From positions 1-20,360 of the IMG/VR virus record IMGVR_UViG_3300014050_000178: a stretch of 20,360 nucleotides of DNA; one strand, given 5' to 3'. Position numbers and translations under genes: made by a program. The first letter of the stretch is position 1, and every line of letters starts with the position of its first letter. The DNA comes from a virus. Below the pieces are notes generated by a model. The model ran no database searches. It saw only the letters and a program-made list of their open reading frames with translations, and was not told where the DNA came from. Below are positions 2,523-15,480 of the stretch, in pieces.

Positions 2523-2557
2523 AGAGTTATACACCTAAACGGGTGTTATTGTTTTCT

Positions 2558-2564
2558 AAGGAGG
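2558..2564 (+). promoter_or_regulatory. Strong ribosome binding site that decides the lysozyme start
   Basis: AAGGAGG ends 5 bases before the ATG at 2570. This favours that ATG over the in-frame GTG at 2543, which has no ribosome binding site and would place nine polar residues ahead of the signal peptide. Confidence 0.85.
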
Positions 2565-2569
2565 AAACT

Positions 2570-3151
2570 ATGAAAAATGATCAAAAATTTCTAATAGGGG
2601 TACTCGCATTCGTGCTTGGTTTTACAGGAGTTGTTGGAACAGTCAATGCTAACGCTTTGTCTACTGAAAATAACCTGAGTACTAAAACGGCTGCTACATC
2701 AACAACCGCTAAGGCGGTTTTTTTGGTTTCTAAGCCAAAAGGTTTGGTTCAAGTAAAAAAAGACTTAAATATTTTAGTAAAATATCAAAATTCTGCAAAA
2801 CTGACAGATAAAGAATTAAAAGATCTTCTTTCTGCTGTTGGTTTTAAAGGCAACCATCTTGTTGAGGCTTGGGCTATAGCCAAAAAAGAAACTAATGGAA
2901 ACCCACTGGGATTTAATGGAAATGTTAAAACAGGAGATGCTTCTTTTGGTTTATTTCAAATTAATATGCTTAAAGATATGGGACCAGAGCGTAGGGCTAA
3001 GTTTGGTCTTAACTATAATGCAGATCTTTTAAATCCCGTTTTAAATGCTCAGGTAGCCTATTGGATGAGCAGTGGTGGAACAAATTGGTCTTCATGGCAT
3101 GGAATAAGTTCAAGAACAAAAGCATGGATGAAAAAGTTTCCAGTTAATTAG
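2570..3151 (+). CDS. Secreted lysozyme / lytic transglycosylase-like protein, probable endolysin
   Basis: A 193-residue protein and the only clear plus-strand gene. Residues 7-29 form a hydrophobic segment ending in ANA, a typical Sec signal peptide or signal-anchor. A Thr/Ala/Ser linker follows to about residue 50, and a lysozyme-fold domain covers about 78-193. Hallmarks of the SLT/lysozyme superfamily are the helix AIAKKETNGNP with probable catalytic Glu107, TGDASFGLFQIN (121-132), and an AYWMSSGGTNWSSW-type block near the end. By family it cleaves the peptidoglycan glycan strand. The export signal suggests Sec-dependent (SAR-like) lysis without needing a holin for release, but a virion-associated lysozyme is also possible. 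It has its own promoter and strong ribosome binding site, and a terminator-like hairpin lies inside the coding sequence. Its stop overlaps the convergent oxygenase stop by 3 bases. Confidence 0.85.
   Translation: MKNDQKFLIGVLAFVLGFTGVVGTVNANALSTENNLSTKTAATSTTAKAVFLVSKPKGLVQVKKDLNILVKYQNSAKLTDKELKDLLSAVGFKGNHLVEAWAIAKKETNGNPLGFNGNVKTGDASFGLFQINMLKDMGPERRAKFGLNYNADLLNPVLNAQVAYWMSSGGTNWSSWHGISSRTKAWMKKFPVN
2704..2724 (+). terminator. Intrinsic-terminator-like hairpin inside the lysozyme coding sequence
   Basis: AACCGC (2704-2709), loop TAAG, GCGGTT (2714-2719) forms a perfect 6-bp GC-rich stem, and seven T run from 2718 to 2724. It lies at about codons 45-52, roughly 175 bases after the predicted transcription start. 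A second dyad, TTTTGG (2721-2726) with CCAAAA (2735-2740), overlaps the T run. Confidence 0.55.
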
Positions 3152-3663
3152 CAATACCACTGAACAATACAATAACGTGTTCCATCTATAACTGGATGGA
3201 CAATATGGTTATATGTGTATGCTGAAGGGAATATTAAAAGATCTCCTGCCTTTGGTTTTATATTAATTCCAAATCTAGGAAATTCAATATTTCCTCCAGT
3301 ATACCCATCATTAATGTAATATATTAATGAAATCCTACGTCTATTTAGTTCTGGATGATCATCAATATGATTATTAAATTTTTGCCCTGATCCATATCTT
3401 AAAAGAATGGGAACTTCTTTTGTTAAAAATATTGTGTTATATTTTTTTAAATATTTATCTAAATAAGGATTTAAATTATTTTCAAAATCTTTTAAGTAAT
3501 TTAATAAATTAAAATTATTTAATAATATGCTATCTGTATTTCTGCCATTTTCATTGTTTGGTCTTTCTAGACCCCAATCACGTTCTTTTATATTATCAAT
3601 ATAATTTTTAGGAAATATATTAATATCATTAAATAATTCAATTCCTTGGGTTAATTCCAACAA
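3148..3663 (-). CDS. 2-oxoglutarate/Fe(II) dioxygenase, prolyl 4-hydroxylase type
   Basis: A 171-residue protein with the double-stranded beta-helix iron and 2-oxoglutarate signature. The metal ligands are H99 and D101 in NNHIDDH and probably H153 in the block HIVHPVIDGTRY, and R163 should bind the 2-oxoglutarate carboxylate. The stretch GGNIEFP followed by PKAGDLLIFPS is typical of the P4H/PKHD branch. Family chemistry is hydroxylation of a protein or small-molecule substrate coupled to decarboxylation of 2-oxoglutarate; the substrate is not evident. The start is TTG at 3663 or the adjacent TTG at 3660. No ATG is available and the upstream gene ends 2 bases before. This is the last gene of the leftward island. 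Confidence 0.85.
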   Translation of the reverse strand: MLELTQGIELFNDINIFPKNYIDNIKERDWGLERPNNENGRNTDSILLNNFNLLNYLKDFENNLNPYLDKYLKKYNTIFLTKEVPILLRYGSGQKFNNHIDDHPELNRRRISLIYYINDGYTGGNIEFPRFGINIKPKAGDLLIFPSAYTYNHIVHPVIDGTRYCIVQWYC

Positions 3664-3664
3664 T

Positions 3665-4246
3665 TTAATCTATCCAATTTTTAATGTTTAAATTTATATT
3701 AATTACCCCACGAAGTCTTGTGTTTTCTGGTGGAGTTATTGCATGAAAGTGTCTTCCGTCCAAAAGAAAAGCAGAACCTCTTTTTGGTGTTATTCTTTCC
3801 ATTATTTCTCCTGGGGTATCTATTTGTGATCCAGTCAATCTTTGCTTATATAGAACTGTATCTCCATCACTGTCATTTACATAGTACAAAAATACCCAAT
3901 GTGGTATTGATGCATCAACATGAGGAAATAGCGTTGTTGCATTTTTTATTGAAGGTGTAAGATTGAATTTAATTCTAGAAATTGAATCAAAACTAATATT
4001 ATGCTTATTACAAAAAATATTAACAATTTTTTTTGCAATTATTGATTCTTTTCTTTCTTCATTTTCATTTACTGTAAATGTAAAATACGATATATCTTTT
4101 GCTCCAGTATTTATAATTCCTGGATGATCTAAACCATTATTATGAATAATATTTAAATAAGCCCAAGGGATTCCTGTTGACCAGTACATCTCATCTACTT
4201 CACAAATTTCTTCTTCAGTTAAAAATTTGTCATCATATATAAACAT
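3665..4246 (-). CDS. 2-oxoglutarate/Fe(II) oxygenase, divergent type
   Basis: A 193-residue protein. The iron-binding pattern is H109-V-D111 in FPHVDASIPHW, with a distal His (H168 in DGRHFHAITPPENTRLRG) and R177 or R179 as the 2-oxoglutarate anchor. ITPKRGSAFLLDG matches the beta strand before the distal His. It lacks the GG(N/D)I.FP block shared by the three P4H-like enzymes in this island, so it comes from a different branch and may act on a different substrate. AAAGGA precedes the ATG with good spacing. It lies 1 base after the sulfotransferase gene 4248-4838 and 1 base before the next oxygenase, so the three are surely co-transcribed. Confidence 0.8.
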   Translation of the reverse strand: MFIYDDKFLTEEEICEVDEMYWSTGIPWAYLNIIHNNGLDHPGIINTGAKDISYFTFTVNENEERKESIIAKKIVNIFCNKHNISFDSISRIKFNLTPSIKNATTLFPHVDASIPHWVFLYYVNDSDGDTVLYKQRLTGSQIDTPGEIMERITPKRGSAFLLDGRHFHAITPPENTRLRGVININLNIKNWID

Positions 4247-4247
4247 A

Positions 4248-4838
4248 TTAAATTTCCTTTATTATTTCTTCATACATGGCATATGCTTCATTTAGTATAT
4301 CATTATTTTTTATATATTCCCAAATTTTTATATATTCTGGATCTTGATTTGCGCCTCTTGGAAAATGTCCAGTATATAGGTCATGTCTATCATCTGCAAA
4401 TTTTTTCTGTTTAATTACATCTAAAACATTATCAATATTTAAATTAAATTCTGATGAAAAATTGTATTTATTTAAAAATTTAATAATTTCTTCTTTAGGA
4501 TTTTTTATTAATTTATCAAAATTAATTAAATAAGATTTTTTTAATTTAGACATTTCTAAAAAATATAAATAATTTTTACACTCTGATTTAATTATAATGT
4601 CTAATTCGTTAATATTTTCAGGTAATTTACCTACTAATAGCCACTTAAAAATATCTGAAGTTATACATTCTTTTGGATTCCTAATAATTGTTATAGTTAT
4701 TACTTCATCAATTCCAATTATTTGTGGCAAATGCACAACAGTAGTTTCATATTGCATTGTCCTCATAGAGTTTATTAATTCTGCAAGAAAGACAGATCCA
4801 GACCTAGGATAAGAATTTATTAATATTGGTTTTGTCAT
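4248..4838 (-). CDS. Sulfotransferase (PAPS-dependent)
   Basis: A 196-residue protein. SYPRSGSVFLAELIN (residues 9-23) is the 5'-phosphosulfate-binding loop of the sulfotransferase superfamily, and TIIRNPKECITSD (50-62, R53 and S61) is the 3'-phosphate-binding motif. A C-terminal segment RGANQDPEYIKIWEY fits the C-terminal part of the fold. By family it transfers a sulfo group from PAPS to a hydroxyl or amine. It is shorter than cellular carbohydrate sulfotransferases (about 250-300 residues) and of a different branch from the tandem HIPKTGG pair at 7548-9075. It is sandwiched between an oxygenase and the DUF6065-like gene with 1-base gaps. No Shine-Dalgarno is obvious, so translational coupling is likely. 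Confidence 0.85.
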   Translation of the reverse strand: MTKPILINSYPRSGSVFLAELINSMRTMQYETTVVHLPQIIGIDEVITITIIRNPKECITSDIFKWLLVGKLPENINELDIIIKSECKNYLYFLEMSKLKKSYLINFDKLIKNPKEEIIKFLNKYNFSSEFNLNIDNVLDVIKQKKFADDRHDLYTGHFPRGANQDPEYIKIWEYIKNNDILNEAYAMYEEIIKEI

Positions 4839-4839
4839 A

Positions 4840-5565
4840 TTATTTAAATATTTTTCTTACCCAATAATTTAACATGTAGTATCCTGTTTTTGATCTAAAT
4901 CTTTTTCCATCTTCTATTAATTTTTGTTGTGATTCTTCATGAGGCAATACAACTATTTCACTTTCCCAGTTTTCTCTTTTAAATGGAATTACTTGAATTA
5001 ATGGAGTACCCTTTTTAATAATACCTGAAAAATTTTTATTTATAAAAATAGGAATTGCTCCAGGTGTAAATATTTTATCATTTTCAATAACTCCACTAGT
5101 GATAACAAAGGGTAGTTCAAATCTATTTAAAGGGGTTACATACAGTGCGCTATACCCTTCTGGAAGGCTTACCCCCCATTGAGGAACGAGAGCAATATGA
5201 TCTTTATAAAATCCATCTGGAACATTAAAGCCTTTCATCTCTGGACGAAATTGAAAAATAGAGTTAAAGTCATGATCTATTTCAATTTCAACCTCATCTC
5301 CATTTTTTTGCACTATTATATCAACTGGACTTAATATAAAATATCCTAAAGACATTGAATCTAAAAAGGATATACAACCTTTAAATGTTGGGCTTTTACC
5401 ATCTTCATTATGTGCCCTAACACCATGTGATGAAAATTTTTTAGCCTTTAAATACCAATCTGGCAAAGATAAAATTGATGCTATTGGATTAATTAAATCT
5501 TTATCAGATTTTCTTTGAAAAGCATAAAACTTAATTAAATTAAATTTATTGATATTCTTCACCAA
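4840..5565 (-). CDS. DUF6065-like protein of unknown function
   Basis: A 241-residue protein. Several blocks look like the family I know as DUF6065: SLGYFILSPVDI (about 72-83), QWGVSLPEGYSALYVTPLNR (about 128-147), and GTPLIQVIPFKRENW near residue 190. I recall such proteins from phages and cyanobacteria, without a known activity. The alternation of short beta segments suggests a beta-rich fold, which is inference. The start is uncertain: TTG at 5565 or GTG at 5562, with only a weak AGGA upstream, and no ATG is near. It overlaps the preceding gene by about 20 bases. Sitting within the oxygenase/sulfotransferase operon, it may be an accessory or substrate-recognition factor. Confidence 0.7.
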   Translation of the reverse strand: MVKNINKFNLIKFYAFQRKSDKDLINPIASILSLPDWYLKAKKFSSHGVRAHNEDGKSPTFKGCISFLDSMSLGYFILSPVDIIVQKNGDEVEIEIDHDFNSIFQFRPEMKGFNVPDGFYKDHIALVPQWGVSLPEGYSALYVTPLNRFELPFVITSGVIENDKIFTPGAIPIFINKNFSGIIKKGTPLIQVIPFKRENWESEIVVLPHEESQQKLIEDGKRFRSKTGYYMLNYWVRKIFK

Positions 5566-5917
5566 AAAGGTCCTGTGGGTATGTATAACTTACAGAATTT
5601 TTATATCTATTTAATTCTGGAATTTTTTTTTCAACTTCTAAAATAACATTTTCAAAAGTTTCAAAATTTAAAGATTGACCTAAATTAATCATTTTATTTT
5701 TAACATTATTATAAAAACTTGTTGCAGTTATTTCATCAAAATAAATATTATAAAAATAAATATCTATATCTACCATCTGCATATCAGGGTTAGATCTAAA
5801 AACTGCAATTTCAAATTTATTATTTATTAATTTAAGACAAGATAATCTTAGCCAAAAAGACTGTCCAAATGGGATTGAATCTTTTAATTCCCAATACTTT
5901 ATTGAATCATCATGCAT
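5546..5917 (-). CDS. Hypothetical protein of the oxygenase/sulfotransferase island
   Basis: A 123-residue protein that I do not recognise. It has no signal peptide or membrane segment and no obvious catalytic motif. The N-terminal half is beta-like and aromatic-rich (QSFWLRLSCLKLI, then VDIDIYFYNIYFDEI), and the C-terminal half looks helical (about 65-100). GGAG with an 8-base gap precedes the ATG. Its end overlaps the DUF6065-like gene by about 20 bases, which suggests coupled translation and possibly a joint role. It follows the oxygenase gene after 22 bases. Confidence 0.7.
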   Translation of the reverse strand: MHDDSIKYWELKDSIPFGQSFWLRLSCLKLINNKFEIAVFRSNPDMQMVDIDIYFYNIYFDEITATSFYNNVKNKMINLGQSLNFETFENVILEVEKKIPELNRYKNSVSYTYPQDLFGEEYQ

Positions 5918-5939
5918 AATGTTTTCTCCATTTTTATAA

Positions 5940-6557
5940 TTATTGTTCTAAATTATCTTTATGTGCTTCAAACTCTGTCCAAAAACTAGATATTGTATAT
6001 CTAGTTCCATTTAATACTCTATTAACTCCATGTAGGTGATGAACATCCCCTGGGAAAAATGCAAGCATTTTTGGTTTAATGGGAATTGAAACTCCATGTT
6101 GTGGGAAATGAATATCTCCACCATCAAATTCATCATTTAAATATAAAACACAGCCAACTTGCCTCCAATTATAAACATGTGGCTGACCACCTAAATTTTC
6201 AAAATCTGAATGTACTGGCTGTACATATCCATGAGGCCACTTAATTAAATTTAAACTATCAGCATATATTGGTTTTTGTAAATTATATTCTTGAATAATT
6301 TTATTTTTTATTCTTTTTCTAATATCAATTAACATATTTAAAATTTCAAGGTCGTAGTCTGTTCCAAATCCTTTATGAACTAAGTTTAAACTAAAAGCAC
6401 CTAAAAATCTATTAGACCATTGGCCATATGGATCTCCATCTTTTCCACCAATATCCCACAAACTATTATTTGTTAAATATTTTTGATATTCAACTAATTT
6501 ATTATTTTCATCTTCTGAAATAAAATTGTGAACAACTTTAATATCTTCTATTGCCAT
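5940..6557 (-). CDS. 2-oxoglutarate/Fe(II) dioxygenase, prolyl 4-hydroxylase type
   Basis: A 205-residue protein. VQPVHSDFEN gives H116 and D118; HHLHGVNRVLNGTRY gives distal H176 and R186. GGDIHFP followed by PIKPKMLAFFPGDVHH is the typical P4H/PKHD core. It is the closest visible relative of the oxygenase encoded immediately upstream (6558-7124). Both end in an I(S/T)SFWT block after the Arg, so the pair probably arose by duplication. The ATG directly abuts the TAA of that gene. Family activity is hydroxylation of protein side chains or small molecules; the target is unknown. The start fits the relative, which begins near the equivalent point. Confidence 0.85.
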   Translation of the reverse strand: MAIEDIKVVHNFISEDENNKLVEYQKYLTNNSLWDIGGKDGDPYGQWSNRFLGAFSLNLVHKGFGTDYDLEILNMLIDIRKRIKNKIIQEYNLQKPIYADSLNLIKWPHGYVQPVHSDFENLGGQPHVYNWRQVGCVLYLNDEFDGGDIHFPQHGVSIPIKPKMLAFFPGDVHHLHGVNRVLNGTRYTISSFWTEFEAHKDNLEQ

Positions 6558-7124
6558 TTAATTTGTCCAATCTAATAAATGTTGTGCATAACCATATTCT
6601 TTCTGATATGTCCAAAAAGAAGTTATAGCGTAACGAACTCCACTAAAAATTTCTGTAACTCCATGCATATATTCAAAAGAAGATGGAAACATTATAAGCA
6701 TACCAGGTTTTGGAACTATTGTCAAATTTTGATTTGGAAAAAATAAATTTCCACCCTTAAAATTATTATTTAAATAAAGTACAGAAGAAAAATTTCTATA
6801 AGATGTTCCATTATCTTCACCATTATTTCCTGTAGAATCTGAGTGTGGGTTTCCAGTTTGTCCAGATTGTGTTCTACAAAATTGAAATAATTCAGGATAT
6901 ATTTCTTTATTTAAATTAAAATTATTTTTTATATTTTGTTTTATATCTTTACTAATATTGTTGATTTCATTTAAAACATTATTGTTGTTAATATTATTTG
7001 GATTTATGCATCTTTCATTCCATAGTAGATTATTTGGAATTTTTTGCCAACTATCTGTATTTATTAAATAATTATTAAACAGATTGATGTTTGTTTTTGA
7101 TAAAAAATTTTCAATTATTTTAAT
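6558..7124 (-). CDS. 2-oxoglutarate/Fe(II) dioxygenase with apparent ATT start codon
   Basis: A complete 188-residue oxygenase frame ending in TAA at 6558. It carries H94-S-D96 (GNPHSDSTG), GGNLFFP, a PKPGMLIMFPSS strand, distal H154 and R164 (YMHGVTEIFSGVRY), and ITSFWT. In frame there is no ATG, GTG or TTG before the catalytic HxD; the first TTG is codon 134. ATT at 7124-7122 lies 9 bases after AAGGAG, and starting there gives IKIIENFL, which aligns with IKVVHNFI at residues 6-13 of the downstream paralogue. I therefore place the start at 7124. Alternatives are a CTG at codon 15 or frameshift fusion to the upstream gene, whose end overlaps by 10 bases. The gene is easily missed by automatic callers. 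Conserved catalytic residues argue that it is functional. Confidence 0.75.
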   Translation of the reverse strand: MKIIENFLSKTNINLFNNYLINTDSWQKIPNNLLWNERCINPNNINNNNVLNEINNISKDIKQNIKNNFNLNKEIYPELFQFCRTQSGQTGNPHSDSTGNNGEDNGTSYRNFSSVLYLNNNFKGGNLFFPNQNLTIVPKPGMLIMFPSSFEYMHGVTEIFSGVRYAITSFWTYQKEYGYAQHLLDWTN

Positions 7125-7561
7125 TTTATTTTGCTCCTTGTAACACTTTTTTCTAATTCTTCATCATCATAAAAATTATTTTCAACTTCTTCAAGACTTA
7201 TATCTGGATTATTTTTAAAAACAGATATAACATAATTTTGACTATCTGATCCATCATTAAGCCAAGTTTGTCTTAATAAAACGTTTCCTTCTTTATCAAT
7301 ATAAGCAAAATGATACCAATTATATTTTTCATCTTCTGTTTTTAATTCTATGTTTTTATTTCTTTTTATATAGTTTGGAATCAACAATCCACTTTTTTTG
7401 TCCCAATAATCCCCAGTTTTTGCTTCAAAAACAAAATGATTAACATCTACAATATCAGAGTTTTGTTTGTAAACTTCATAAGATATGCTTTTTTTATCAA
7501 TAAAAGGAATTTTAAAAACAACCTCTTTATCAATTAAAAATACTGCATTATAAGTTTTCAT
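7115..7561 (-). CDS. Hypothetical protein of the oxygenase/sulfotransferase island
   Basis: A 148-residue protein that I do not recognise. It is soluble and mixed alpha/beta, with many charged and aromatic residues. Blocks such as KTGDYWDKKSGLLIP and YNWYHFAYIDKEGNVLLRQ look like beta strands, and an acidic helix follows (SLEEVENNFYDDEEL, about 121-135). AAAGGA precedes the ATG. Its start overlaps the tandem sulfotransferase by 14 bases, and its end overlaps the ATT-start oxygenase by 10 bases and contains that gene's ribosome binding site. A partner or substrate of these enzymes is possible by position only. Confidence 0.7.
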   Translation of the reverse strand: MKTYNAVFLIDKEVVFKIPFIDKKSISYEVYKQNSDIVDVNHFVFEAKTGDYWDKKSGLLIPNYIKRNKNIELKTEDEKYNWYHFAYIDKEGNVLLRQTWLNDGSDSQNYVISVFKNNPDISLEEVENNFYDDEELEKSVTRSKIKLK

Positions 7562-8303
7562 TTTTTTCCTTTACATAGTTATATATTTTAAAATCTAAAT
7601 CATTATTATTTATTATAGCATTCATATCCTTTTTTGTCAATAATGATTTTAAATATTTAGTTGTATAAATATTATTTAAATTTGACTCTAATATTTTTGC
7701 ATTTGTTTTTTTAACAAAATTAATATTATAATTATTAATAAACCATTGTTCTATTTGATTATTAAAATAATTAAAGTTATCAAGAGTTCCTACTATGTCA
7801 AAAGAATTTATTTGTTTTTTAGCAAATTCAAAACTAGTATTTGTATTTTGTAGACACCAATTTTTTGACCATTCTTCATAATTAATATTTTTTTCAAATA
7901 CAATATTGTTTGACTGATTACAAATAAATCTTGTCTGTATATTATTATGTTCAAAATAAAAATCATCTTCAAATAAATAATATTTTAATTTATCTACCAT
8001 TTCTGAATAATTTAAATATTTTTTATTATATTTTAATAATTTTTCATATATCCAAAGAAAATTACTAATTGATCTATCTATAGGATTTCTCACCATACAG
8101 GCTATTGAAAGATTATTTATTTTATCAATTGGATAGGTTCCTATATGTGCTTGAATATAGTTATATTTTGATAAATTTTTATCATATGGTGTTTTTGAAT
8201 TTAATAACATATTAAGATTGTTTATTCCAATATTTGAAACAACATTTGTCATAATTGAGGTACCACCAGTTTTTGGAATATGTAAAAAATATAAACTATT
8301 CAT
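7548..8303 (-). CDS. Sulfotransferase, HIPKTGG type, tandem copy B
   Basis: A 251-residue protein. LHIPKTGGTSI (7-17) is the PAPS 5'-phosphosulfate loop, with K11, T15 and S16. ACMVRNPIDRSISNF (68-82) is the 3'-phosphate motif with R72 and S78. A conserved KLKYYLFEDDFYF block follows. The length is usual for the sulfotransferase branch related to heparan sulfate and carbohydrate enzymes. It is a clear paralogue of the gene just upstream (8296-9075), with shared motifs in the same order; the two overlap by 8 bases. Unlike copy A it keeps the canonical TS after PKTGG. By family it sulfates a hydroxyl or amine of a glycan or protein; the acceptor is not evident. Confidence 0.85.
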   Translation of the reverse strand: MNSLYFLHIPKTGGTSIMTNVVSNIGINNLNMLLNSKTPYDKNLSKYNYIQAHIGTYPIDKINNLSIACMVRNPIDRSISNFLWIYEKLLKYNKKYLNYSEMVDKLKYYLFEDDFYFEHNNIQTRFICNQSNNIVFEKNINYEEWSKNWCLQNTNTSFEFAKKQINSFDIVGTLDNFNYFNNQIEQWFINNYNINFVKKTNAKILESNLNNIYTTKYLKSLLTKKDMNAIINNNDLDFKIYNYVKEKNENL

Positions 8304-9075
8304 TTTTAGATTTTATATAATTGTAAAGAAAAAGATCAAATGAATTATTGTCTAAAATTTGTTGTTTTTCTATTTCTGTAAGTGAATTAATTAATGACTC
8401 CGTTGTATATTCATTTAAATCTTTATCTATTATTTTAGATGGAATATTTTCAAATTCTCTATCACTAAAACTAACATCTAGATTATTCATAAACCATTGT
8501 TTTATTTTATTATAAAATATATCGTGTCTTTCTATTGTTTCAACTATTTCAAAAGAATCAATTAAATTTATTATATCTTCTAATGTATATTCTTCATCAT
8601 TTAAATACCAGATGTTATTATTTTTTTCAATAATATTTACATTTTCTTTTTTAAATAAATTTTGAAATGCTTCATCTTTCATATTGTTAAAAATTGATCT
8701 ACATTGAAGATTATTAACTGCCGAATAGTATGGATCTTCAAATAAATAATATTTTAATTTATCTTCAATTTTTTCTATTGTTTTGTATATTTCATTATCT
8801 TGAATATTTTGTATTGCATTATTATAGGAGTGAATAAAATTGCTAACAGATCTATCAATAGGATTTCTTACCATACAGGCTACTGAAATATTTTCATTTT
8901 TTGTTATTGGTGTTTTACCAAAATGACCAATTATAAAGTTTGATGAATTAAATTCTTCAATAGTAGAATCTGTAGATCCGATAAAAGGATTTAAATTAGA
9001 ATTGCCTTTAATTTTTGCTAATATATTCATACCTCCAGTTTTTGGAATATGTAAAAAATATAATTTTTTTGTCAT
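8296..9075 (-). CDS. Sulfotransferase, HIPKTGG type, tandem copy A with altered PAPS loop
   Basis: A 259-residue paralogue of the downstream gene. LHIPKTGGMNI (9-19) corresponds to the PAPS loop, but the usual Thr-Ser after PKTGG is Met-Asn (M16, N17). VACMVRNPIDRSVSNF (65-80; R70, S76) is intact, as is KLKYYLFEDPYY. The Thr/Ser at this position normally contacts the phosphosulfate, so this copy may bind PAPS less well, have a shifted role, or act in a heteromer. It starts 1 base after the zinc-ribbon gene and overlaps copy B by 8 bases. Both copies keep an (A/G)H(I/F)G motif (H51 here), which often lies near the acceptor site in this branch. Confidence 0.85.
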   Translation of the reverse strand: MTKKLYFLHIPKTGGMNILAKIKGNSNLNPFIGSTDSTIEEFNSSNFIIGHFGKTPITKNENISVACMVRNPIDRSVSNFIHSYNNAIQNIQDNEIYKTIEKIEDKLKYYLFEDPYYSAVNNLQCRSIFNNMKDEAFQNLFKKENVNIIEKNNNIWYLNDEEYTLEDIINLIDSFEIVETIERHDIFYNKIKQWFMNNLDVSFSDREFENIPSKIIDKDLNEYTTESLINSLTEIEKQQILDNNSFDLFLYNYIKSKNE

Positions 9076-9076
9076 T

Positions 9077-9319
9077 TTACCACTTTCCTAATGGACAAGA
9101 CGATTTTTGTAATTTTGTTTTAATTTTCATAAAACAACCACATTGTTTGCAGATTTTGGTTTCATGAATAAATTCTAAACAAGACAAGCAAGATAAATAT
9201 CGTTCTTTATGTGTTTCTTTGTCTACTTTATTTTTTGTAGAATCTAAAATATCCCAGGGTCTTGTACCATCTTTTTCAAATAAATTATTTTTTATATTTT
9301 TCCAAATATTATCTGACAT
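9077..9319 (-). CDS. Small zinc-ribbon protein heading the island
   Basis: An 80-residue protein with six Cys: C44-x2-C47, C57-x2-C60-x-C62 and C75. The C-terminal half, KICKQCGCFMKIKTK then SSCPLGKW, resembles a small zinc-ribbon family that I have seen in marine phages, without a known function. AAGGAG lies 5 bases before the ATG, and an extended -10 (TGATATACT) sits a further 8 bases upstream, so this is the probable first gene of the leftward oxygenase/sulfotransferase operon. The next gene starts 1 base after its stop. A regulator or nucleic-acid or protein-binding adaptor is possible but not shown. Confidence 0.8.
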   Translation of the reverse strand: MSDNIWKNIKNNLFEKDGTRPWDILDSTKNKVDKETHKERYLSCLSCLEFIHETKICKQCGCFMKIKTKLQKSSCPLGKW

Positions 9320-9350: not shown

Positions 9351-9878
9351 TTATGTACCAGTACATCCAACAAATTCATATGCTGGACCTCCATAGCATA
9401 TCATAACTCCAGTACCACCACTACAACGAGGATCATTAGGAACAAAGTACACATTGTATCCACCACAAGATGCTGGTGGATTAGAATAAATAGGTGGATT
9501 GAAATAAATAGGTGGGTTGTAATATGGGTTATAATAAGGAACAAATGGTGTCACTGAATTAGATGCAGAAGAACTAGTTGCGGATGATGATATATCTACG
9601 TTTGTTGATGTTCTTGTTTTTGCATTAACAGTAAAAGTATAGGCAGTTCCATTTGATAATCCTGTAATGTTAATTGATGTTGTTGCAGATGTTCCAGTGA
9701 TTGATCCTGGGCTTGATGTTGCTGTATATAAATTATTATCCCCTGGTTTTCCTAAATATGTTGGTAATGTAAAAGTAACAGTTGCACTTGCATCACCTGC
9801 AGAAGCAGTTCCAATAACTGGTACACCTGGTTGACGACCATCAGAAGAAGCAACAATACCTGGAATAATTGGAGTCAT
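9351..9878 (-). CDS. Fibronectin type III protein with Pro/Tyr/Asn-rich, four-Cys C-terminal tail
   Basis: 175 residues from the ATG at 9878, chosen because it overlaps the upstream TGA as ATGA with GGGAG about 10 bases before. An ATG at 9905 would overlap the fibre gene by 31 bases. Residues about 17-110 form one fibronectin type III domain (ATVTFTLPT, YTATSSPG, INITGLSNGTAYTFTVNAKT). Residues 112-136 form a tail built of repeats of PYYNP, PPIYF and NPPIYSNPP, rich in Tyr and Pro. The last 40 residues hold C138, C152, C161 and C172, possibly two disulfides. It is probably an exposed virion or fibre-tip protein. It lies directly upstream of the hydroxylase/sulfotransferase island, so its Pro and Tyr side chains are candidate targets; that is inference. 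Confidence 0.8.
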   Translation of the reverse strand: MTPIIPGIVASSDGRQPGVPVIGTASAGDASATVTFTLPTYLGKPGDNNLYTATSSPGSITGTSATTSINITGLSNGTAYTFTVNAKTRTSTNVDISSSATSSSASNSVTPFVPYYNPYYNPPIYFNPPIYSNPPASCGGYNVYFVPNDPRCSGGTGVMICYGGPAYEFVGCTGT

Positions 9879-11110
9879 GCCGTCAAATCTCCCATTGCTA
9901 CCCAAAGATTTGTAGCACGTTTAATAAGAGTGCAAGAAGACCATTGTGCACGTAATTTTAATCCAGGTGTTGCATTAACTGTAACAGCATTTGGAGTAGT
10001 TGCTCCTGCTAGTGTTACTTGACCTGAAGTTGTTTGTAAAATTGTTATTTGAGTTCCTACAGGGAAATTAGTTGTAGCATCTGATGGAACTGTAACTGTT
10101 CCTGCTGCAGGAATTTCAACAACTTTACCATCATCAGCAAGAACAACTGTATAAGCACCAGTTGGTGTTGTATTAAAAGCAATATGACTAACTGCATTGC
10201 CAGTTACGGCAAGAGAGGATAAAGTACCTACAGAAGTAATGTCTGTAAGGTTTCCAGAAGTAATAACAGTACCGCTGATATTTGGAAGATTAATAGTTCT
10301 ATCTACTGTTGGATCAATAACTCCTAATGTTGTTTCAAATGCATCTGCTGTTGAACCTTCAAAAGTTAATGTATCTGTAATATATCCTTGTGTAATTGTT
10401 GGTGCACTCAATGTTTTATTTGAAAGTGTTGCAGCACCTGAAATAGTATCAATATCAACACCATTAACTTGTACTGTACCAGTTCCTTTTGAAACTAAAT
10501 TTAATGTAATGTTTGTATCTGTTCCTGTTGCAGAAATGGTTGGTTTTCCTGTTGCAATTGCATTTGTAATAGTAATTTGATTTACAGCAGAAACAACAGG
10601 AGCAGGAAAAGTAATTAAAGATGCACCATTAGTATCAGCAATAAACGTGCTAGACATTTTAGGTGCAGTTAAAGTTTTATTTTGTAGTGTTACCGTATTT
10701 ACAAGTGTTACTTCAGGTGTAACCCATTGAAGTCCTGTTCCTGTTGCTGAGTTAGCAGTTAAAACTTGTCCATTTGTTCCAACAGTTAAAGCAGAAACTG
10801 CAGATGCTGCAGTAGCAGATACTAAAACACCTTTAGCAGACCATACAGATGCTTGAACTCCAAGTGAGCCAGATACTGAAGATATCTGAGTTTGAAGGCT
10901 ATAAAGACTATGAGCAATAGATGGGTTTACAAGTGCAGCGCCACTAGTATTTGATGGATCATATTGTCCAACACCTGTTCCAGTTGGTGCTCCATAATGA
11001 TAAAGACGAAGTGCTTCTTGAATGTCTGCATTATCAACAAGAGAAGGCATCTTAGTATTAAGATTAAAATTAGTTAATCCAGTAATAGCACTACCAATAA
11101 CTTCAGCCAT
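9875..11110 (-). CDS. Tail fibre / appendage protein, 411 residues
   Basis: Contains fibre modules: LQNKTLTAP (142-150) and LSNKTLSAP (229-237), then a FEGSTADAFETTL...RTINLP...GTVIT block (250-284) that also occurs twice in the 656-residue fibre. The end, from about residue 318 (YTVVLADDGKVVEIP, FPVGTQITILQT, TPGLKLRAQWSS, ATNLWVAMGDLTA), is a well-known phage fibre C-terminal head domain. The N-terminus (about 1-70) differs from the other fibres and may attach to the virion. GGGAGG with an 8-base gap precedes the ATG. The stop overlaps the start of the fibronectin gene by 4 bases, so the two products are probably made together. Confidence 0.88.
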   Translation of the reverse strand: MAEVIGSAITGLTNFNLNTKMPSLVDNADIQEALRLYHYGAPTGTGVGQYDPSNTSGAALVNPSIAHSLYSLQTQISSVSGSLGVQASVWSAKGVLVSATAASAVSALTVGTNGQVLTANSATGTGLQWVTPEVTLVNTVTLQNKTLTAPKMSSTFIADTNGASLITFPAPVVSAVNQITITNAIATGKPTISATGTDTNITLNLVSKGTGTVQVNGVDIDTISGAATLSNKTLSAPTITQGYITDTLTFEGSTADAFETTLGVIDPTVDRTINLPNISGTVITSGNLTDITSVGTLSSLAVTGNAVSHIAFNTTPTGAYTVVLADDGKVVEIPAAGTVTVPSDATTNFPVGTQITILQTTSGQVTLAGATTPNAVTVNATPGLKLRAQWSSCTLIKRATNLWVAMGDLTA

Positions 11111-12337: not shown

Positions 12338-13645
12338 TTAGTAATATAAATAAATTATGCCATTTCCACCAGTGCCAGCAGTAGAAAAAGTACCTATTGC
12401 ACTTCCTCCGCCACCTCCACCTAAACCACCATTGCCTCCATTGGCACCAGAACCATTACCTCCAACAGCAGCAAATCCTGCACCGCCACCACCGCCACCG
12501 CCTGTAGTTTGTCTATAAGTTCCACCTGATGTATAAGTTCCAGTTGAAGCATTTGCTACAGTAAACTGAGTTGATGAAGCAGTTGTAATTGCTACGTTTG
12601 AAAGGTTTGCTGTTGTAAAGCCTAAAATTCCAGTTGTGGTTATAAACATTCCAGCAGTAAGTGTATTTGCAGCGGTATATGTAATTGGTCCAGTATATGA
12701 AAATACAATTGTTCCTGTTGCTGCTCCAGTAGTTGCATTAGCAACTGTAAAAGATGTTCCTGATACTGCAGATACGACTGTAAATGTACCATTATAACCA
12801 GTAGGTGTTGCTCCTGAAATAGTTACTGATGCACCAGCCAAAACTGCTGTTGATGTTGTTGAATAAGTTACAAATCCTGTAGAAGGAGAAGATGGTGTAA
12901 CTGCTGTAATTGATATAGCACTTGCTGTTCCTTGACCTACTGCATTTGTAATAGTTCCTGTTAGTGCTGTATTGCTTCCACCAGTACCTGCTGCAAAATA
13001 ATCACCAATTCCACCTCTTTCACCTGTAAATGAAGTGGCATTACCATTACTTCCTCCAGGAGTATTGTTAACTGCTGCTCCTCCACCTCCAATTAAACCT
13101 GAACCACCTTGATAAGCAGAACCGCTACCACCATTATTACCGCCTCCAGCACCACCAGCGGAAACACCAGCACCACCACCAGAATTTACTCCAACAGCAG
13201 ATACTGCATATCCTGGGTTTGTACTTGGAGCACCTGTATAAGAAACACCACCTGCTGTAGTAGCCCCACCACCTGCTCCGCCTGCACCAGCAGAACCACC
13301 TCCGCCTCCTGCAGCAAAGACCATTCCATAAACTGTTGCTCCACCTGCTGAGCCAGATCCGTTGTTACCTCCAGCGCCACCTGCTCCTACAGTACAAGTA
13401 TTAGAAATGTAAGTCCAACCAGCAGAAAATCCTCCTGCACCGCCACCACCGTTATAAGTGCTATTGTGTTGAGCACCTCCACCCCCTCCGCCAATACAAA
13501 CAGCATAAACTCTTTGAATTCCAGCAGGTATAACTGAAGATCCAGTAGCAACACCCATTACTCCACTACCAGTAATAGTTTGTTGTAACTTTAAACCAAA
13601 TGGTGTGTCTGAAAATTTTGCATTGTCATAAATTGATACGCTCAT
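12338..13645 (-). CDS. Glycine-rich adhesin-like protein 1, with beta-domain insert
   Basis: 435 residues. The N-terminal cap (1-50; FGLKLQQTITGSG, IPAGIQRVYAV) precedes Gly-rich repeats (52-225). A non-glycine beta insert at 226-378 is built of two similar halves, each ending in FTVANA(T/S)TG. A second Gly-rich stretch (381-428) ends in GGNGIIYLYY. Poly-Gly blocks resemble the polyglycine-sandwich adhesins of phage tail fibres (for example S16 gp38), which present variable loops to the host receptor. It is homologous at both ends to the next two genes, but only this copy has the insert. GGGAG precedes the ATG by 5 bases. Confidence 0.85.
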   Translation of the reverse strand: MSVSIYDNAKFSDTPFGLKLQQTITGSGVMGVATGSSVIPAGIQRVYAVCIGGGGGGAQHNSTYNGGGGAGGFSAGWTYISNTCTVGAGGAGGNNGSGSAGGATVYGMVFAAGGGGGSAGAGGAGGGATTAGGVSYTGAPSTNPGYAVSAVGVNSGGGAGVSAGGAGGGNNGGSGSAYQGGSGLIGGGGAAVNNTPGGSNGNATSFTGERGGIGDYFAAGTGGSNTALTGTITNAVGQGTASAISITAVTPSSPSTGFVTYSTTSTAVLAGASVTISGATPTGYNGTFTVVSAVSGTSFTVANATTGAATGTIVFSYTGPITYTAANTLTAGMFITTTGILGFTTANLSNVAITTASSTQFTVANASTGTYTSGGTYRQTTGGGGGGGAGFAAVGGNGSGANGGNGGLGGGGGGSAIGTFSTAGTGGNGIIYLYY

Positions 13646-13662
13646 ATTAACTCCCTATTGTA

Positions 13663-13671
13663 ATTATATCA
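13663..13671 (-). promoter_or_regulatory. Extended -10 overlapping a stop codon, upstream of glycine-rich gene 1
   Basis: TGATATAAT, in which TGA is the stop of glycine-rich gene 2 (13669-13671). The ATG at 13645 follows after 17 bases with GGGAG between, so a short leadered mRNA of about 10 bases is predicted. Confidence 0.45.
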
Positions 13672-14583
13672 GTAAAAGATGTAAAGGATTCCTGCACCGC
13701 CTGAGCCACCCGAACCAGACGCTCCACCAGCACCGCCTCCGCCTCCGCCTAAACCACCAACGCCAAGTGTGCCAAAACTACCACCAGCGTTACCATTACC
13801 TGCTAAACCACCGCCACCGCCACCTTGGGCTGCTTGATTAACTGTGTTTATTTCACCTGCACCGCCTAGCGTTATTGTACCAGTTGCGATATTAAATCCA
13901 TTACCTCCGCTACCGCCTGTGCGGGAACCAGTATTGTTTGGAGCAACACATCCTCCACCTCCTCCTGTTAAACCTGATCCACCAACGCCACCTGTTGAAC
14001 TTCCAGTTCCAGTTACTTGATTTCCTCTTCCACCACCACCTGAAATACCATTTCCACCTGCAGAGGCAGGAACATTTAATATTAAATCATTGGTAGTCCA
14101 AGAACCCCCACCTGCCCCAACGCCACCGTTTACGCTACCACCTGGAAGCCCATAGTAGTTTGTAGCACCAGTACCATTACGAGAACCTCCCCCTCCTAAA
14201 CTTCCACTTAGGGTAGCACCAGATCCACCACCTGCAATAATATGTCCGTAGCGAGTATAACCACCTGGATTATTTCTTGCACCACCTGCACCTACAATGC
14301 ATTGTGAATTTGCTAAAGTCCAGCCCCAAGCAACTCCACCACCGCCACCGCCTATGTAATTACCAGAATTATCACCCCCACCGCCACCGCCTGCTAAAAT
14401 AACATAAACCCAAGTAATACCAGAAGGAATTGTTACAGAACCTGATGATGTAATTGTTTGACGTAATCTTAAACCATGCGGAAGTATTGATGAAGTTAAT
14501 TGATTAGGTGTTATTGTATTAGAAGAAGAATGCCAAGTAGATACTTGTGTACCCGATTTATTTTTTTTAAATATACTTGTCAT
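13669..14583 (-). CDS. Glycine-rich adhesin-like protein 2
   Basis: 304 residues. The cap region 1-62 includes SSILPHGLRLRQTI and VTIPSGITWVYVI, followed by Gly-rich repeats from about residue 65 and the conserved terminal GGAGILYIFY. WGWTLANSQCIVGAGGA and TRYGHIIAGGG are shared nearly unchanged with glycine-rich protein 3, while the loops between the Gly blocks differ. This is the pattern expected of receptor-binding proteins diversifying after duplication. AGGAG lies 6 bases before the ATG. It is 9 bases from the end of gene 3, and its TGA is part of the next gene's -10 element. Confidence 0.85.
   Translation of the reverse strand: MTSIFKKNKSGTQVSTWHSSSNTITPNQLTSSILPHGLRLRQTITSSGSVTIPSGITWVYVILAGGGGGGDNSGNYIGGGGGGVAWGWTLANSQCIVGAGGARNNPGGYTRYGHIIAGGGSGATLSGSLGGGGSRNGTGATNYYGLPGGSVNGGVGAGGGSWTTNDLILNVPASAGGNGISGGGGRGNQVTGTGSSTGGVGGSGLTGGGGGCVAPNNTGSRTGGSGGNGFNIATGTITLGGAGEINTVNQAAQGGGGGGLAGNGNAGGSFGTLGVGGLGGGGGGAGGASGSGGSGGAGILYIFY
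14279..14333. repeat. 55-bp near-identical direct repeat, copy 1
   Basis: It matches 15185-15239 with a single difference (G at 14299, A at 15205) and lies in the same part of glycine-rich genes 2 and 3 (the segment coding for WTLANSQCIVGAGGA). The two copies are 906 bp apart. Confidence 0.85.
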
Positions 14584-14592
14584 GATTGTCTC

Positions 14593-15480
14593 CTAATAAA
14601 AAATGTAAAGTATTCCTGCGCCACCTGATGCACCACTTCCACCACCGCCTCCACCTAAACCACCTGCACCGCCTGAACTTGTAACTGCATTGTTGCCGTT
14701 TCCAGCAATACCAGCGCCCCCTCCTCCACCAGCATCTCCAATTGCATTAGTTGCACCATTACCGCCTGTGTAAACGGTCCCATTTATACCAATACCATTA
14801 CCACCTATGCCTCCTATGCGAGTTCCGCTAGTTGTTCCAAGACCACCGCCTCCGCCAATTATTCCACTTCCGCCATTACCACCTGTTAAAAATCCACCTG
14901 AACCACCACCGCCAGAAATGCCATCTCCACCATTTGCCCCTGCAACTGTGGTTGTGCCTCCAGTAGCACCACCACCACCTGCGCCAATTAAGCCAGGTCT
15001 ACCTTGACTACCTCCAGGAGTACCCCAATAATTTGTTTGACCATTTGAACCACCATTATTTGTATTTTGTCCTCCACCACCACCTGCGCCAAGAAGTGGA
15101 GTGCTAAAATTACCTCCGTTGCCACCTCCACATGCAATAATATGTCCATAACGAGTGTGACCACCTGAACCTTGGGTGTTACCAGCACCACCTGCACCTA
15201 CAATACATTGTGAATTTGCTAAAGTCCAGCCCCAAGCAATACCACCAGCGCCACCGCCAGCAGCAGCATTACCGCCTCCGCCACCGCCTACACATATTGC
15301 ATAAACCCAAGTAATACCAGAAGGTATTGTGACTGAAGTTGTTCCTGCATTTATTGTTTGACGAAGGGTTAATCCATGGGGGAATATAGATGAAGTTAAA
15401 CCAGTAGGAGTATTATTATCTTCTTGTGACCAAGTTCTTACTTGCGAACTAGAAACACCTCTACGTATTGGATTAGCCAT
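14593..15480 (-). CDS. Glycine-rich adhesin-like protein 3
   Basis: 295 residues, and a paralogue of the two genes downstream. The cap (1-62) has SSIFPHGLTLRQTI and VTIPSGITWVYAI, followed by Gly-rich repeats with the shared WGWTLANSQCIVGAGGAG and TRYGHIIACGGG blocks, and the conserved end GGAGILYIFY. The likely role is a receptor-binding adhesin at the fibre tip, by analogy with polyglycine adhesins. The ATG overlaps the upstream TAA (TAATG), with AGGA 7 bases before. Whether all three paralogues are used together or as alternatives cannot be told from the sequence. Confidence 0.85.
   Translation of the reverse strand: MANPIRRGVSSSQVRTWSQEDNNTPTGLTSSIFPHGLTLRQTINAGTTSVTIPSGITWVYAICVGGGGGGNAAAGGGAGGIAWGWTLANSQCIVGAGGAGNTQGSGGHTRYGHIIACGGGNGGNFSTPLLGAGGGGGQNTNNGGSNGQTNYWGTPGGSQGRPGLIGAGGGGATGGTTTVAGANGGDGISGGGGSGGFLTGGNGGSGIIGGGGGLGTTSGTRIGGIGGNGIGINGTVYTGGNGATNAIGDAGGGGGAGIAGNGNNAVTSSGGAGGLGGGGGGSGASGGAGILYIFY
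15185..15239. repeat. 55-bp near-identical direct repeat, copy 2
   Basis: This is the partner of 14279-14333, with one mismatch over 55 bases, inside glycine-rich gene 3. Recombination between the copies would swap or fuse the two adhesin genes in frame. Confidence 0.85.

Follow-up and report, generated by a model that had tools for sequence, protein, structure and literature searches.

The viral contig IMGVR_UViG_3300014050_000178 of IMG/VR, analysed here over the whole length of its record (20,360 bases, hereafter the window; probably a genome fragment), carries on its minus strand, between positions 3148 and 9319, a block of eleven genes that includes four 2-oxoglutarate (2OG)-Fe(II) oxygenases (OX1 to OX4) and three sulfotransferases (ST1 to ST3). 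We propose, with a probability of roughly 0.6, that the oxygenases act on a repeat adhesin encoded directly upstream of the block (9351–9905, minus strand), with the block as the enzymatic half of a cassette for adhesin modification. The preliminary description of this DNA had read the block as a fibre-linked modification set, and our analysis supports this broad reading and sharpens it by pointing to a likely substrate. The proposal draws on the gene content of the block and its fibre-tip context, the constant co-occurrence of its core genes with one type of repeat, the co-variation of oxygenase sets with repeat types among related loci (designated by L numbers), and the kinship of the oxygenases with prolyl hydroxylases.

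A gene for a probable fibre-tip adhesin with a repeat adjoins the enzyme block

The gene at 9351–9905, which the preliminary description had overlooked, overlaps with its start the end of a tail-fibre gene, FIB2 (9875–11110, minus strand). The C-terminal ~105 amino acids of FIB2 form a widespread fibre-tip domain that is present in at least 588 IMG/VR stretches, and its relatives in isolated phages are annotated as minor tail protein or tail fibre. Because of this fibre-gene context, we infer that the adhesin is located in the virion, at the fibre tip. It consists of a weak FN3 domain (fn3 E 1.5e-4, just under the cut-off), a Tyr/Asn/Pro repeat (YYNPYYNPPIYFNPPIYSNPP, hereafter YNPP), and a Cys-containing end. 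Among YNPP adhesins, those of the window, L003, and L122 begin with an FN3-like part and those of L004, L034, L036, L124, and L128 with a PASTA-like one, as classified by sequence and, for the window and L004 only, by Pfam. The repeat adhesins of L004 (4454–5458), L034 (7942–8871), L122, L124, and L128 also carry a C-terminal Hint (intein-like) domain, which is absent from those of the window and L003; self-processing of a tail-tip protein through such a domain would be unusual.

The OX4-OX3-UNK1 core accompanies the YNPP repeat

A codon-pattern scan for NPPxYxNPP across 2.9 million viral contigs yielded 24 stretches, and all real repeat adhesins among them (L002/L003, L004/L005, L015, and L025) adjoin relatives of the OX enzymes, of UNK1 (5546–5917, minus strand; 123 amino acids), or of two other proteins of the block, the six-Cys protein ZNR and a dUTPase-fold protein. 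Matches such as those in L011, L013, L026, and L031 were set aside as short chance open reading frames (ORFs) or portal-like proteins. Alignment to OX4 retrieved 11 loci, some on new contigs and each with a YNPP adhesin gene no more than a few genes off, and the UNK1 scan retrieved nine, all within the same contig group; the three separate scans of IMG/VR converge on one group of contigs. UNK1 was found only alongside the YNPP repeat and OX3/OX4, being present in 8/8 YNPP loci vs 0/59 others (p 1.5e-10). The enzymes are not scattered independently among relatives: the OX4-OX3-UNK1 core co-occurs, beside fibre genes, in all relatives found whose sequence spans this region. The backbone of the window is unrelated to most other YNPP loci, the identity of OX4 to that of the window is 44–56% in YNPP relatives (minimum 44–46%), and the gene order varies, the core preceding the adhesin in L034 and succeeding it in L124.

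Oxygenase sets co-vary with the type of repeat

In the loci that were selected by the fibre-tip domain alone, the 80 best out of more than 588, the next gene often encoded an FN3- or PASTA-like protein with a different low-complexity repeat, such as FFPPFFPFFPP, SPPAFFAPPGFF, PPVTPPVT, or PFGFTPFGFTP; most tip proteins with such other repeats (FFPP, FSPP, PPVT, and FGFTP) stand beside other oxygenase sets. In 70 fibre-tip loci, taken irrespective of their enzymes, we counted 19 2OG oxygenases in about 496 kb upstream vs 163 in about 540 kb downstream, with densities of 0.16–0.64 per 10 kb upstream vs 2.2–3.8 per 10 kb in the stretch that begins with the tip gene. An oxygenase lay within 8 kb in 21/22 FFPP loci (mean 4.4), 9/9 FSPP loci (mean 4.4), 8/8 YNPP loci (mean 2.5, with OX4 of the window uncounted for want of a standard start), 3/3 PPV loci (mean 1.0), and 15/25 FGFTP loci (mean 0.9), fractions that are not unbiased rates, since the loci of a third scan had been selected via the dUTPase-fold protein.

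Across 57 deduplicated loci, the similarity of oxygenase sets followed the dipeptide similarity of the repeats (0.497), vs 0.132 for backbone similarity, which fell to 0.037 given the repeat. The partial value for oxygenases and repeat given the backbone was 0.485 (null standard deviation 0.056–0.058, p ≤ 0.001). The oxygenase–repeat value was 0.497 without the window and the loci of the OX4 scan, 0.531 for fibre-scan loci only, and 0.521 without YNPP loci, with p ≤ 0.001 for all partial values. Called from the nearest oxygenase set in unrelated backbones only, the repeat type was right in 29/55 loci vs 10.5 expected; downstream genes gave the right type in 20 and upstream genes in 8. Neither the N-terminal part of the same adhesin (0.02) nor the upstream fibre gene (−0.03) follows the repeat. 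As linkage controls, these two comparisons are insufficient because recombination can happen inside the adhesin gene, and downstream non-enzyme genes were therefore used too.

Such an exchange is visible between the window and its close relative L041, whose fibre genes share 93% and 84% DNA identity with those of the window. The alignment ends at base 9625, inside the adhesin gene, and past the equivalent point the repeat of L041 is of the FFPP type and its enzymes are another set. The swapped-in FFPP cassette (L041, 3504–5191) also has methyltransferase-like and IMP dehydrogenase/GMP reductase-like proteins, named by sequence appearance.

Several points weigh against the adhesin as the substrate. 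The non-enzyme genes downstream follow the repeat as well (0.294), and the bootstrap interval of the oxygenase excess over them, 0.004–0.370, barely excludes zero. Part of the co-variation is module exchange, because the repeat and the enzymes are adjacent, and the Mantel test used here accounts only in part for the relatedness of the loci. Ten of the 25 FGFTP-type loci are without an oxygenase within 8 kb, and the repeat of the window itself is short (about 21 residues), those of the L004 and L124 homologues being longer. Recognised sulfotransferases occur near 3/8 YNPP loci vs 2/59 loci with other repeats (p 0.010). The window itself is among the three, and one FFPP locus (L076) escaped the count; with so few loci this association is only suggestive. 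Finally, the evidence comes entirely from sequence and model comparison.

The tracking by other downstream genes and the breakpoint between the window and L041 are also what genetic hitch-hiking would produce, that is, a joint swap of the repeat end and the downstream cargo through recombination in the adhesin gene, with no functional coupling and with enzymes that act on metabolites as auxiliary metabolic genes, for instance in 2OG/nitrogen metabolism, a role put forward for cyanophages (PMC3037559). We consider this account unlikely: the oxygenases track the repeat beyond the other downstream genes (partial value 0.454, or 0.564 in fibre-scan loci, p ≤ 0.001), and OX4 stays with the repeat despite its divergence, across backbones that are mostly unrelated and across changes of gene order.

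We looked at six isolated phages with the tip domain: the oxygenase family PF13640 is absent from the genomes of five, and in the sixth its one gene lies about 165 kb off. The gene after the tip domain encodes no such repeat in the two Gordonia phages in which it was translated, the other four being judged by annotation. No FGFTP-type tip adhesin was found in named phages, and hence no cultured relative with both parts. On a T4-like contig (L006, 1–1543), an oxygenase gene directly follows that of a long repeat fibre protein with SNDTATA repeats, which may be the same principle applied to a different repeat.

The oxygenases are related to prolyl hydroxylases

All four oxygenases are encoded on the minus strand. 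At the curated PF13640 cut-off of 27 bits, OX1 (3148–3663, prolyl 4-hydroxylase (P4H)/PHD2-like, 61.3 bits), OX3 (5940–6557, 33.6 bits), and OX4 (6558–7124, 48.8 bits) are members by score, and the divergent OX2 (3665–4246, 17.8 bits) alone falls short. The HxD...H iron triad and a distal Arg are present in all four, and the pairs H99/D101, H109/D111, H116/D118, and H94/D96 of the preliminary description lie at the positions it gave. OX2 is assigned by motif, having the HxD at 109 and the distal His and Arg despite its sub-threshold score, and has relatives in L003, L004, and L005. In related loci, the HxD...H plus Arg pattern occurs in 293/306 oxygenases of 150–330 amino acids vs 181/982 other ORFs.

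Among solved proteins, the profile of OX1 best matches bacterial prolyl 4-hydroxylase and EGLN1, and those of OX3 and OX4 best match prolyl 3- and 4-hydroxylases. The nearest solved relatives of these three enzymes are prolyl hydroxylases, and a prolyl-hydroxylase activity is putative. The oxygenases at 3148–3663, 3665–4246, and 5940–6557 match PHROG 274 and 2297, whose label, endonuclease V/DNA endonuclease, looks wrong for 2OG oxygenases. No relatives of OX3 were found in bacterial and archaeal genomes, so these genomes give no clue to the host. Named phages yielded no close relatives, or weak matches only, for OX3, ST1, and ST3. OX4 has no ATG, GTG, or TTG start codon, and its frame best begins at an ATT that lies nine bases on from an AAGGAG (7122–7141, minus strand) and is aligned with the Met of relatives; this ATT may be an uncommon start codon or the result of a point change.

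The protein at 4840–5565 (minus strand; PHROG 7084) had been called DUF6065-like, a label that we reject, as the window protein does not match PF19541 at E ≤ 1 and one relative reaches 14.4 bits against a cut-off of 26.6. Its AlphaFold2 model (predicted local distance difference test score, pLDDT, 90.8) matches dUTPases with a Foldseek E of 1.7e-4 and a VIA-align Z of up to 9.4 over 117–138 residues, at a low identity of 10–22%. The predicted fold is dUTPase-like, and a catalytic role is putative. In the haloviruses HJTV-3 and HSTV-2 (L032 and L033; Hafunaviridae), relatives of this protein have tail genes on one side and ribonucleotide reductase or thymidylate synthase on the other. This fold, the halovirus neighbourhoods, and weak Tet_JBP scores could speak for DNA or nucleotide hypermodification, with the oxygenases and the dUTPase-fold protein making modified bases. 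We regard this as very improbable: the Tet_JBP scores are far under the cut-off, the best profile matches are prolyl hydroxylases, and both the sulfotransferases and the co-variation with the adhesin would be left unexplained.

The sulfotransferases look like an optional part of the cassette

At a cut-off of 22 bits for PF00685 and PF03567, ST1 (4248–4838, minus strand; PF00685, 32.4 bits) and ST3 (8296–9075, minus strand; PF03567, 26.6 bits) are recognised as sulfotransferases, ST1 belonging to another family than ST2 and ST3. ST2 (7548–8303, minus strand) has no Pfam sulfotransferase match and is assigned to the class through PHROG 3347 and homology to its paralogue ST3 (42% identity). The 5' 3'-phosphoadenosine-5'-phosphosulfate (PAPS) loop and the RNP motif are found in all three, in agreement with the earlier claim of three sulfotransferases with PAPS loops.

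Heparan sulfate 6-O- and 3-O-sulfotransferases are the nearest matches of the ST2/ST3 profile, with weak scores that do not settle whether the substrate is a protein or a sugar, and the PHROG name for this type is galactose-3-O-sulfotransferase. Both fit a cassette that alters a host-surface or phage-made glycan (e.g., a sulfated polysaccharide) and in this way changes the receptor or blocks superinfection. Its linkage to the adhesin would then reflect shared host specificity, and matching to the host receptor would likewise yield co-variation of enzymes and adhesin. We judge glycan modification to be unlikely, given that the oxygenase profiles match protein prolyl hydroxylases and that the enzymes co-vary with the repeat but with neither the adhesin's N-terminal part nor the upstream fibre gene.

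The preliminary description had also suggested a two-step system, in which the hydroxyls that the oxygenases introduce into a fibre or polymer are the very groups that the sulfotransferases then sulfate. The two kinds of enzyme do share one block in the window, as well as in L003 and L122. However, no recognised sulfotransferase lies near 5/8 loci with the same repeat and 57/59 loci with other repeats, and the tyrosine of the repeat could be sulfated without prior hydroxylation. Since most cassettes are without a sulfotransferase, the oxygenases do not depend on sulfation, which argues against obligate coupling, and the two-step system seems quite unlikely to us. Among FFPP-type repeats, tyrosine content fails to separate loci with sulfotransferases from those without. 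Collectively, the sulfotransferases look like an optional extra in the adhesin-modification cassette. In another phage contig, L008 (5524–12310), one run holds several oxygenase-like genes and two sulfotransferases together with SET-domain-like and radical-SAM-like proteins, the last two named by sequence appearance.

Architecture and remaining genes of the block

The long ORFs of the block are contiguous, with successive gaps from OX1 onward of 1, 1, 1, −20, 22, 0, −10, −14, −8, and 1 bases, i.e., neighbouring genes stand no more than 22 bases apart and overlap by up to 20. These measurements agree with the leftward contiguous operon with overlaps and 1-base gaps described before; the count of ten genes given with it was wrong, as the parts listed there sum to eleven. 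In the direction of transcription, the order is ZNR, ST3, ST2, UNK2, OX4, OX3, UNK1, the dUTPase-fold protein, ST1, OX2, and OX1. The island is AT-rich (G+C 0.20–0.29 per kb vs 0.31–0.49 in the surrounding window), and OX3, OX4, UNK1, and the dUTPase-fold protein show low ratios of nonsynonymous (dN, 0.02–0.07) to synonymous (dS, about 0.5–0.66) divergence between relatives. Because of the AT-rich island, the conservation of the core gene set in relatives, and this purifying selection, the block is not a chance arrangement.

The first gene, ZNR (9077–9319, minus strand), had been described as a zinc ribbon; it encodes a small six-Cys protein that belongs to DUF6171 by score (PF19668, 31.7 bits; cut-off 27). 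UNK2 (7115–7561, minus strand) has no Pfam or PHROG match and is a single sequence among all loci, in which no relative was found, and the structure model of UNK1 (pLDDT 82.6) could not be matched convincingly to a fold. In total, promoter-like sites are no more numerous in the window than in shuffles. A perfect TTGACA-17-TATAAT with a TG extension (7640–7612, minus strand) lies within the end of ST2, upstream of UNK2-OX4-OX3. Outside the block, a lone rightward gene with an SLT_3 lysozyme-like domain (2543–3151, plus strand) overlaps the end of OX1 by four bases, and three glycine-rich proteins of 295–435 amino acids are encoded in succession amid fibre genes at 12338–15480 (minus strand).

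Proposed mechanism and comparison with known systems

The adhesin-modification cassette may work as follows. The phage would produce the tail-fibre-tip protein with its Tyr/Asn/Pro-rich low-complexity repeat at the end, and the P4H-like oxygenases, at least OX3 and OX4, would hydroxylate the repeat inside the infected cell ahead of fibre assembly, perhaps assisted by UNK1 and the dUTPase-fold protein. Hydroxyproline is our first guess for the product, because proline is common to all repeat types and prolyl hydroxylases are the nearest relatives; asparagine and tyrosine, the residues that mark the YNPP repeat type, are possible targets. In this phage, the sulfotransferases would probably sulfate the same protein, at tyrosine or another hydroxyl. 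The outcome would be a chemically altered sticky tip with changed attachment, and the repeat and its enzymes would pass between phages largely as a matched set.

More tentatively, at odds that we place short of even, there may be a large phage group with interchangeable cassettes of adhesin and modifier, in which each aromatic/proline repeat class at the tail tip is paired with dedicated hydroxylases and sometimes with sulfotransferases. If so, these cassettes would be a chemically tunable phage glue, comparable to the hydroxylated structural proteins of eukaryotes, and the dedicated pairs of repeat and hydroxylase would explain the purpose of many phage 2OG oxygenases. Aquatic phages commonly carry such oxygenases as unexplained genes, with sulfotransferases as recurrent neighbours. 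The co-variation names a concrete candidate substrate, the neighbouring repeat adhesin, and suggests post-translational diversification of phage attachment chemistry.

Known prolyl hydroxylases act on proline-containing protein sequence, which is often repetitive. The bacterial and collagen enzymes and their kin (P4H 3itq/5hv0, prolyl 3-hydroxylase 1, and EGLN1/PHD2) belong to the same 2OG-Fe(II) family and have the same HxD...H...R residues as OX1, OX3, and OX4. Unlike them, the phage enzymes, whose activity is putative, occur as several divergent paralogues in one cassette, and the set is tied to an adhesin repeat. The 2OG-Fe(II) oxygenases of T4-like cyanophages and marine phages (PHROG 61) are of the same superfamily; some of this type sit in replication or other clusters and not, as here, behind a repeat adhesin. 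That of S-SSM7, between uvsX and gp41, is an example that not all phage oxygenases fit the pattern. Proposed roles for phage 2OG oxygenases are 2OG/nitrogen metabolism in the host or DNA repair (PMC3037559), and a structural likeness to the human prolyl hydroxylase EGLN3 has been described (PMC12774648). Sulfotransferases are present in OM43 phage genomes, a group that also has 2OG oxygenases, and the authors call their function unclear (PMC10580990); they are of the same enzyme class as those of the window, where three stand in one block directly behind an adhesin gene.

The literature searched, which left out most subscription journals, describes neither phage oxygenases with adhesin repeats as substrates nor hydroxylase sets paired with such repeats. 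The modification of virion proteins by phage enzymes is known in general, phage glycosyltransferases being one example. Like these glycosyltransferases, the enzymes proposed here would act on the phage's own virion protein; unlike them, they would do so with other chemistry, and their repertoire changes with the sequence of the repeat.

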